Source: Blattabacterium cuenoti (GTDB taxonomy: Bacteria > Bacteroidota > Bacteroidia > Flavobacteriales > Blattabacteriaceae). Taken from it: DNA of 64,000 nucleotides. Position 1 is the first letter of the stretch. Every line of letters begins with the position of its first letter. A program made the translations under genes and the position numbers. Below, piece after piece: positions 43,227 to 45,787 of the stretch. The stretch covers positions 62,001 to 126,000 of the forward strand of contig NZ_CP059205.1 of the NCBI RefSeq assembly GCF_014251995.1, in the 5' to 3' direction. The notes below the pieces were generated by a model. That model ran no database searches. It saw nothing but the letters and a program-made list of their open reading frames with translations, and was not told where the DNA came from.

Positions 43227-44558
43227 TTAATTGTAATTTTTTTTTCTTATTACTTCTACAGCTTTTATTCTTTTATTATCAATACTTCTTATAATAAAAG
43301 AATAATTTGAAAAATTTATTCTCTGTTTTTTTTTAGGAAACTCTTTATTTATTTCCATAATAAATCCACCTAAAGTGTCTGCATTTCCTTTTTTTTTTTC
43401 AAAAATAAATTCTTCTTTTATTTCCATAATACGATAAAAATTAATTAAAGAAGTTTTTCCATCAAATAAGTAATTATTTTGATTTAATTTTGAATAAGAC
43501 ATATCTTCTTCATCGAATTCATCAATAATATCTCCAACTATTTCTTCAATTACGTCTTCAAGAGTAACTAATCCACAAGTTCCTCCATACTCATCCACTA
43601 CAATAGCTAAATGAATTTTCCTTTTTTTAAAATCGTTTAAAAGATCGTCTATCTTTTTTTTTTCTGGAACAAAAAAAGGAGGATGAATAAGATTAGTCCA
43701 TTCAAAATTTTTACTAGAAATAAATGGAAGAAGATCTTTAGCAAAAAGAACACCTTCTATATCATCGATACTATCTTTATAAATAGGTATTCGAGAATAC
43801 CCTTGATAACGAACTAATTCTAATACATCAGAAAAAATAATATTTTTATTTAAAGAAAACATATCTATTCTAGGAGTCATAATTTGATGCGTTTCTGTAT
43901 TTCCAAAATCAATAATTCTTTGTAGGAATTGACACTCTTTAACATTTTTTTGATTTGGAGATGCAATTTTTAACGCTTTTGATAGTTGATCTACAGAAAT
44001 TGAATTCTTTTTTTTTATTAATTTTTTTTCTATGAATTTTGAAATAATAATTATTATTCTACTAATAGGATTCAAAATTTTACTAAGAAAAATCAATGTT
44101 GTTGACATAAAAAAAGCAAAACGAAAATTATTTTTGCTAGCATATATTTTTGGAATTATTTCCCCGAATAATAATAAAATAAAAGTGAGAAAACAAACTT
44201 CTAAAAGAAAATTGATAGGTATATAAAATTTATTGTAAAATACTAAACATTTATTTTCTAAAAATTTACTTATTAAGTAAGAGCTCAGTATTACTATTCC
44301 AATATTGGAAAAATTATTGGATATTAATATTGTTGCTAAAAGTTTTTTTTTCTCTCTAAGAATTTCTAATATAATATTTCCTTGTCGAAGATTTTTTTTT
44401 CTTTCTTTATCAAGAGTTTTTTTTTCAAGACAAAAGAAAGCGGTTTCGGATCCAGATATCAATGCAGAAAATAATAATAATATTATTATTAATAATAAAT
44501 AAAAAATAAAGTATAAAGTGTTTTCTAAAAAAAAATTCGTCGAAGATTCTTTTTCCAA
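43227..44558 (-). CDS. gldE: CNNM/CorC-type membrane protein with CBS domains, GldE-like
   Basis: 443 residues: an N-terminal DUF21 membrane domain (SALISGSETAFFCLEK), a CBS pair (TETHQIMTPRIDMFSL and VVDEYGGTCGLVTLEDVIEEIVGDI), and a C-terminal CorC/HlyC domain. Such proteins move or sense divalent cations. Adjacency to mutY points to GldE, found in flavobacteria as mutY-ssb-gldE-gldD; ssb and gldD are missing at this site. The symbol rests on context; plain hemolysin C family protein is the cautious name. Confidence 0.8.
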   Translation of the reverse strand: MEKESSTNFFLENTLYFIFYLLLIIILLLFSALISGSETAFFCLEKKTLDKERKKNLRQGNIILEILREKKKLLATILISNNFSNIGIVILSSYLISKFLENKCLVFYNKFYIPINFLLEVCFLTFILLLFGEIIPKIYASKNNFRFAFFMSTTLIFLSKILNPISRIIIIISKFIEKKLIKKKNSISVDQLSKALKIASPNQKNVKECQFLQRIIDFGNTETHQIMTPRIDMFSLNKNIIFSDVLELVRYQGYSRIPIYKDSIDDIEGVLFAKDLLPFISSKNFEWTNLIHPPFFVPEKKKIDDLLNDFKKRKIHLAIVVDEYGGTCGLVTLEDVIEEIVGDIIDEFDEEDMSYSKLNQNNYLFDGKTSLINFYRIMEIKEEFIFEKKKGNADTLGGFIMEINKEFPKKKQRINFSNYSFIIRSIDNKRIKAVEVIRKKNYN

Positions 44559-44653: not shown

Positions 44654-45703
44654 CTAAATTATTTTTTCATGTTTTAGAAATAAAATAATAGGTTTAGGAA
44701 AAGGATATTTTTTTATTTCATTATGTGAAATGAAAAAAATGTCACTAGGTGATATCAAGTTTTTGAATTGTAAACATTTACAATTCAAAAACTTGATATA
44801 CAAAATCTGACGAGTAATTTTATGTTTCATTTTATAAGTTAATACAATATTAGAAACAACTAATCTAAATAACTTTCGAAGTTTATTGTTAATTTCATCA
44901 ATAGTAAGATTTTTTCTTGACTCAATTAAAGGAAACTCATAAAGTCCTTTCCATATATCTTTAGATCTTTTTACAATACAAAAATTATTATTTTGATCAT
45001 GAATAAAAACATAATAAAAAAATCTATGCTTTATTGTATATTTTTCTATTCTTTTTACAGGAAATTTATATACAGAATTATTTTTAATAGAAAAACAAGA
45101 ATTTTTAATTGGACATAATAAACATTTTGCATTTTTTGGAGTGCAAAAAATTGCCCCGATATCCATAATTGCTTGATTAAAAATACCAGGAGTTTTCCAA
45201 TCTATCATTTTTAAAACAATAGTCTTAAATAAATTTTTTGTTATAAAAGAAGTTATATCATATTTAATTCCCAAATATCTAGAAAATACTCTATAAGCAT
45301 TTCCATCAATAGCAGGAATAACTTCATTAAAACATATAGATGCAATAGCAGCCCCCGTATATGGACCTATCCCTTTATGTTTTATTAATTCTTTATATGT
45401 TTTTGGAAATAAATTATCATTACCTTCTAATTTTTTAGAAAAAGAATGTAAATACCTTGCTCTAGAATAGTAACCTAGTCCTTCCCATTCTTTTAATACA
45501 TTTTTTTCCTCTGCTTGAGATAACTTTTCCAAAGTTGGAAATTTTTGTATAAAGTTTAAATAGTATTTTATTGTATTTGAAACTTTTGTTTGTTGTAACA
45601 TAAATTCTGAAACTAATATATGATACGGATTTTTAGTCCTTCTCCAAGGAAGTTTCCTATGGTTTTTTCTGTACCAATTTATTATTTTTCTGGAAAAATT
45701 CAT
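44654..45703 (-). CDS. mutY: A/G-specific adenine glycosylase MutY
   Basis: About 349 residues. N terminus NWYRKNHRKLPWR; catalytic glutamate in SEFMLQQTKV; helix-hairpin-helix KHKGIGPYTGAAIASI; catalytic aspartate in PAIDGNAYR; and an intact [4Fe-4S] loop CTPKNAKCLLCPIKNSC. The C-terminal NUDIX-like domain is diverged. The ATG at 45703 gives the conserved N terminus; another lies 6 bp upstream. A perfect 48-bp palindrome lies inside the coding sequence near the 3' end. Confidence 0.93.
   Translation of the reverse strand: MNFSRKIINWYRKNHRKLPWRRTKNPYHILVSEFMLQQTKVSNTIKYYLNFIQKFPTLEKLSQAEEKNVLKEWEGLGYYSRARYLHSFSKKLEGNDNLFPKTYKELIKHKGIGPYTGAAIASICFNEVIPAIDGNAYRVFSRYLGIKYDITSFITKNLFKTIVLKMIDWKTPGIFNQAIMDIGAIFCTPKNAKCLLCPIKNSCFSIKNNSVYKFPVKRIEKYTIKHRFFYYVFIHDQNNNFCIVKRSKDIWKGLYEFPLIESRKNLTIDEINNKLRKLFRLVVSNIVLTYKMKHKITRQILYIKFLNCKCLQFKNLISPSDIFFISHNEIKKYPFPKPIILFLKHEKII
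44752..44799. repeat. Perfect inverted repeat, 23-bp arms and 2-nt loop, inside mutY
   Basis: Arms 44752-44774 and 44777-44799 are exact reverse complements separated by CA. The segment is coding (mutY residues around YIKFLNCKCLQFKNL), so mutY mRNA can fold into a long hairpin here. The flanking bases (G at 44751, A at 44800) do not pair. Confidence 0.95.
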
Positions 45704-45787
45704 ATACATTTAATTTTATAGCAATTTTATAAAAAATAGGTATATTTAGGAAACCGAATTTTGTTATTCGATATTAATGGATTTAAC

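Follow-up and report, generated by a model that had tools for sequence, protein, structure and literature searches.

A perfect palindrome in Blattabacterium mutY as a probable scar of quasipalindrome correction

Why should mutY of Blattabacterium, a cockroach endosymbiont, contain a long perfect palindrome that is translated in both arms? The locus lies in the 64-kb stretch of DNA analysed here (the window), positions 62001-126000 of a single 628,453-bp contig, and the initial annotation, which described a perfect 48-bp palindrome with 23-bp arms and a 2-nt loop inside mutY, was accurate: ATATCAAGTTTTTGAATTGTAAA-CA-TTTACAATTCAAAAACTTGATAT is found exactly at 44752-44799, with 23 of 23 arm positions complementary across the loop CA (Table 1). 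It corresponds to about codons 304-320 of mutY, within the NUDIX_4 domain and ~100 nt ahead of the stop codon, and the reading frame of the gene (best NCBIfam match 280.9 bits, just below the cut-off of 286.5) is open across it. No longer perfect hairpin exists in the window when loops of up to 20 nt are allowed; the runners-up have 15- and 14-nt arms, and third-order Markov simulations of the window (n=10) reached maximum arms of 11-15 nt, which places the mutY palindrome far beyond chance.

Table 1. Positions, within the window, of mutY, the parts of its palindrome and the downstream gene
Feature	Position	Strand	Remarks
mutY, A/G-specific adenine glycosylase	44654..45709	-	351 aa, intact frame; TIGR01084, Pfam HhH-GPD and NUDIX_4
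Coding-strand 5' arm, ATATCAAGTTTTTGAATTGTAAA	44777..44799	-	residues Y-I-K-F-L-N-C-K; likely template arm; aligns with a conserved segment of relatives
2-nt loop	44775..44776	-	
Coding-strand 3' arm, TTTACAATTCAAAAACTTGATAT	44752..44774	-	encodes L-Q-F-K-N-L-I; probably the rewritten copy, with one codon fewer than most relatives
gldE-like CNNM/CBS/CorC_HlyC protein	43227..44558	-	downstream of mutY; palindrome lies outside the mutY-gldE gap

Codon alignments with 39 mutY genes of the same genus show the palindrome to be absent from all 39, in which 6-17 of the 23 positions pair, and no comparable RNA fold occurs at this site among them. The arms are thus not conserved in related mutY, the comparison that the initial annotation had proposed, and what relatives show is also not the clear simple local duplication that it had named as the refuting alternative. 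Their pairing is best in the register of the palindrome itself (11.9 of 23 on average, 17 at most, against means of 5.4-10.1 at registers shifted by 1 to 6 nt), with TTGTgAAAtTTTACAA as the core of the quasi-palindrome, and this best pairing in the exact register indicates that an imperfect inverted repeat pre-existed. The 5' arm segment reads ATT CAA TTT TTG AAT TGT GAA (I-Q-F-L-N-C-E) in relatives and ATC AAG TTT TTG AAT TGT AAA here. The 3' arm stretch is variable, typically TTA CAA GAT TTT AAA AAA AAT ATA in relatives; here it reads TTA CAA, then, after an in-frame loss of 3 nt, TTC AAA AAC TTG ATA. In most comparisons with the nearest relatives the 3' arm is more diverged than the 5' arm (e.g. 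0.62 v 0.17, 0.46 v 0.30 and 0.42 v 0.26), with equal or opposite values against some near relatives.

The RNA fold predicted for an 88-nt mRNA segment with the palindrome is very stable (-31.6 kcal/mol, z = -8.4), as would suit an mRNA hairpin selected for the stability, translation or 3' processing of the mutY-gldE transcript. We nevertheless hold such selection to be unlikely: the palindrome is confined to this one genome among the mutY genes compared, the region has no terminator-like site, and no Rfam family scores above its gathering threshold, two weak miRNA-type matches being those expected by chance on a long hairpin. Judged by sequence comparison, the absence in relatives refutes a regulatory or processing hairpin that is conserved; a lineage-specific RNA role is conceivable, with nothing to support it. 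An intrinsic terminator or attenuator was likewise rejected, because the stem is AT-rich and within a gene, not a GC-containing stem at the end of a gene with a U run directly behind it.

We consider it probable, at roughly three chances in four, that the mutY palindrome is a mutational scar of quasipalindrome correction via replication template switching. For mutY the case rests on anatomy and on the population of similar palindromes described below. Explicit template-switch alignment against relatives gave no gain above controls (0.5-1.5 edits; controls mean 0.9, 95th percentile 1.9), the lineage being too diverged: protein identity to even the nearest relatives is about 73% and the focal genome sits on a long branch, which puts the mutY donor sequence beyond reconstruction. 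Since the 5' arm is itself derived over its outer 8 nt (ATATCAAG), the present state requires at least two events, or point mutations in between. Copied to the 3' position, the genus-typical 5' arm ATTCAATTTTTGAATTGT would put TGA in frame (CAA TTC AAA AAT TGA); with the focal lineage's ATCAAGTTTTTG the copy reads CAA TTC AAA AAC TTG ATA, which contains no in-frame stop. The 5' arm had therefore probably changed before it was copied, or several events took place, either of which fits the failure of one-step alignment from any relative.

Palindromic elements of the REP/BIME, MITE-like or Rickettsia type are known within genes elsewhere. Insertion of such a mobile or dispersed element into mutY is nonetheless barely credible, in that the palindrome arm is single-copy in the whole genome even when 3 mismatches are allowed, the genome's other palindromes are unrelated in sequence, and the site shows a net codon loss with no inserted length. 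The exact arm is absent from viral contigs, and a viral source was rejected. Hairpins can also cause errors in amplified libraries, and the second arm might then be an artefact of sequencing or assembly. This we judge highly improbable: ordinary reads are longer than the 48-nt feature, the mutY frame is open across it with a length change that is a multiple of 3 nt, and palindromes like it are present in many genomes of the genus that were sequenced independently, some of these palindromes being shared between species.

Within 464 kb of the focal genome there are 11 perfect palindromes (arms of at least 15 nt, loops of up to 8 nt), 9 of which are inside genes, namely mutY, tyrS, recG, sufD, cysJ, tilS, mtaB, the thiamine diphosphokinase gene and the gene of a 204-aa protein without an NCBIfam match. 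As a null we permuted synonymous codons within each gene, which keeps both protein and codon usage. Coding palindromes with arms of at least 12, 15 and 17 nt number 24, 9 and 7 in the focal genome against 6.9, 1.2 and 0.3 under this null, and arms of at least 20 nt number 2 against 0.1 (415 kb of coding sequence). Arms of such length therefore seldom arise under a protein-preserving null, and the view of the initial annotation that protein constraint does not explain the structure holds. The same counts make it very unlikely that AT-rich codons (AAA/TTT, ATA/TAT, GAA/TTC) together with ordinary point mutation gave rise to the palindrome by chance, even though AT-rich Lys, Phe, Ile and Tyr codons do produce many short inverted repeats; at 11 nt, coding arms are merely two-fold above null. 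Counts from partial samples of seven relatives, which are non-independent through ancestry and some overlapping stretches, are 69, 25 and 14 against 19.8, 3.3 and 0.5 for the same three arm lengths.

The excess is distributed in a telling way. For 18-nt coding arms of the focal genome, the classes with 13-16 pairs lie near null (ratios 0.5-1.2), whereas those with 17 and 18 pairs exceed it 10- and 80-fold; the relatives show a weaker form of the same trend (1.2-1.6 for 13-16 pairs, 4.7 and 14.7 for 17 and 18). Selection for RNA structure should also enrich imperfect but good stems, whereas conversion should enrich perfect ones alone, and an excess so confined to perfect and one-mismatch repeats, that is, bimodal, therefore points to mutational conversion and further against a selected mRNA hairpin. 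Of the three origins that the initial annotation had offered, template-switch correction is best supported, by the species-specific occurrence, the precursor in relatives and the bimodal excess; a hairpin for mRNA stability and a processing site between mutY and gldE are unsupported, given the lack of conservation and of a terminator-like site. The idea that the enrichment is unique to Blattabacterium was dropped as well: loci of free-living Bacteroidota have a coding excess too, at lower density (6 v 0.5, arms of at least 12 nt), so that just the abundance is genus-specific. Long palindromes at these free-living loci are 21 non-coding and 2 coding, the non-coding ones presumably being terminators.

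The asymmetry between arms that template switching predicts is seen more clearly in other genes of the focal genome. In guaA, where relatives have TTTTTCACATTTGCAAATGTagttc and the focal genome TTTTTCACATTTGCAAATGTGAAAA, one arm is identical to that of two relatives and the other is 38-46% different; mtaB has kept one arm as it was and changed CAAACA to CGCAAA in the other; and alignments of cysJ and recG with relatives again show one arm kept and the other rewritten. Explicit template-switch alignment gains 2.4-3.0 edits for mtaB, recG, prmC, thiN and cysJ, against a control 95th percentile of 1.9.

Several further palindromes were observed in the genus. A second mutY site holds a hairpin with 22-24-nt arms in three related genomes (L129:9657-9709, L132:10657-10709, L130:10659-10707), and in three others (L125, L126, L127) it keeps 23 of 24 pairs with a compensatory change of T-A to C-G. 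Near the place of the focal palindrome, two genomes have their own, different perfect palindromes with 17-nt arms (L130:10950-10985, L135:10082-10115), which marks this mutY stretch as a recurrent site. Different perfect palindromes with arms of 15-18 nt are found in mutL of three species (L134:6594-6629, L117:6525-6557, L133:5978-6008; MutL identity was checked for L134). A GC-richer perfect palindrome with 18-nt arms and no loop (L089:15875-15910), with related versions in L197 and L157, lies upstream of a pyruvate-dehydrogenase-beta-like gene and is possibly a regulatory or terminator element.

Palindromes in hisF-like (L197:18256-18292 and orthologues), sufD (L103:15430-15464) and uvrD-like (L176:12038-12080) genes are retained in nearly perfect form by several species, with one or two compensatory changes per palindrome. 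That these hairpins and the second mutY site keep their pairing with few compensatory changes is a point in favour of selected mRNA structure, but template switching has been proposed as a source of compensatory changes in stems (PMC8794818) and would be expected to yield them too; shared hairpins of this kind could reflect either selection or repeated switching.

Under quasipalindrome correction, the starting point at mutY would have been an AT-rich quasi-palindrome that the fast-evolving NUDIX part of the gene already contained. This would have folded into a transient hairpin during replication, and the nascent strand would have copied the neighbouring arm instead of its proper template and then returned, leaving a 3' arm that now matches the reverse complement of the 5' arm exactly, with an in-frame loss of 3 nt. 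We infer the direction of copying, the replication setting and the choice between single and repeated events. The change may have been tolerated in that the segment is poorly constrained, the gene is in decay in some members of the genus and the copied arm is without an in-frame stop, and it would be one of many such events in Blattabacterium. Among relatives the NUDIX half of mutY has a lower mean identity (57%) than the catalytic half (72%). Of the 49 genomes of the genus, 43 give a match to mutY and 6 give none, and the mutY genes of five genomes (G013, G015, G019, G023, G042) contain in-frame stops; the stops and the missing matches indicate decay in parts of the genus. Also in the NUDIX part, MutY residue 300 is Arg in place of the conserved His of an L/I-T-H-Q motif (His in 33 and Asn in 6 of the 39 relatives), a substitution that, from the sequence, may touch 8-oxoG recognition.

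Single-strand exonucleases limit mutations of this kind in E. coli. Model searches of the focal genome gave no match for SbcD, RecJ or XseA (the ExoVII large subunit), and matched RecA and MutS; we suggest that the lack of single-strand exonuclease genes fits the template-switch reading. None of the 49 genomes of the genus has SbcD, and loss of SbcCD as a special cause was set aside as non-discriminating, given that 9 of 15 further genomes from the order likewise gave no match for SbcD.

What is of more interest reaches beyond the coordinates of this palindrome: the genus-wide bimodal set of coding palindromes. Dozens of cockroach-symbiont genomes amount to a natural experiment on template-switch mutation, with fixed coding events and, in some cases, clear donors, in cells where models of SbcD, RecJ and ExoVII match no gene. 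They also carry a warning that strong hairpins, and even compensatory changes, need not imply functional RNA in AT-rich reduced genomes.

The mechanism itself is already known, from the Ripley model of quasipalindrome correction by template switching and from E. coli lacZ reporters (PMC7202029; PMC7954356). As in that system, an imperfect repeat is made perfect by a cluster of changes that one arm takes over from its partner, with small indels and a tight loop; unlike the reporters, the events here are fixed evolutionary scars in an uncultured endosymbiont, read from its sequence, and for mutY the donor state is beyond reconstruction. An inverted-repeat survey of all bacteria names Blattabacterium (Cryptocercus punctulatus) as a high-frequency outlier for its GC content (PMC10434271); in its available part that survey gives frequencies per genome and annotated feature, and species comparison, arm polarity and mechanism are added here. 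Apart from this outlier remark, the genus-wide bimodal set of coding palindromes appears not to have been described in the literature searched, as far as the accessible portions of those papers extend. Template-switch protein innovation in Saccharomyces (PMC8604942) is, in the sections available, similar in its homogenised arms of coding inverted repeats and its multinucleotide protein changes, and different in being eukaryotic, the cases here being many, near-perfect and in AT-rich reduced bacterial genomes.

The closest likeness is to the mitochondria of Nematomorpha (PMC6649704), in which perfect repeats lie in protein genes with both arms translated, are gained and lost among species, and have a 'binary' identity with no excess of imperfect repeats, a bimodality that its authors took as conversion and not selection. 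Those repeats reach 284 bp; Blattabacterium is a bacterium, and its arms reach 26 nt in the genomes sampled, often in poorly conserved segments. We tentatively entertain, as something possible though short of an even chance, that continuous template-switch conversion in Blattabacterium both generates perfect palindromes within genes and keeps them perfect, with compensatory paired changes among its effects at shared sites, much as in nematomorph mitochondria. If so, such conversion would contribute notably to multi-residue changes in the proteins of reduced genomes, and would be a bacterial, genus-wide counterpart of the unexplained nematomorph phenomenon.
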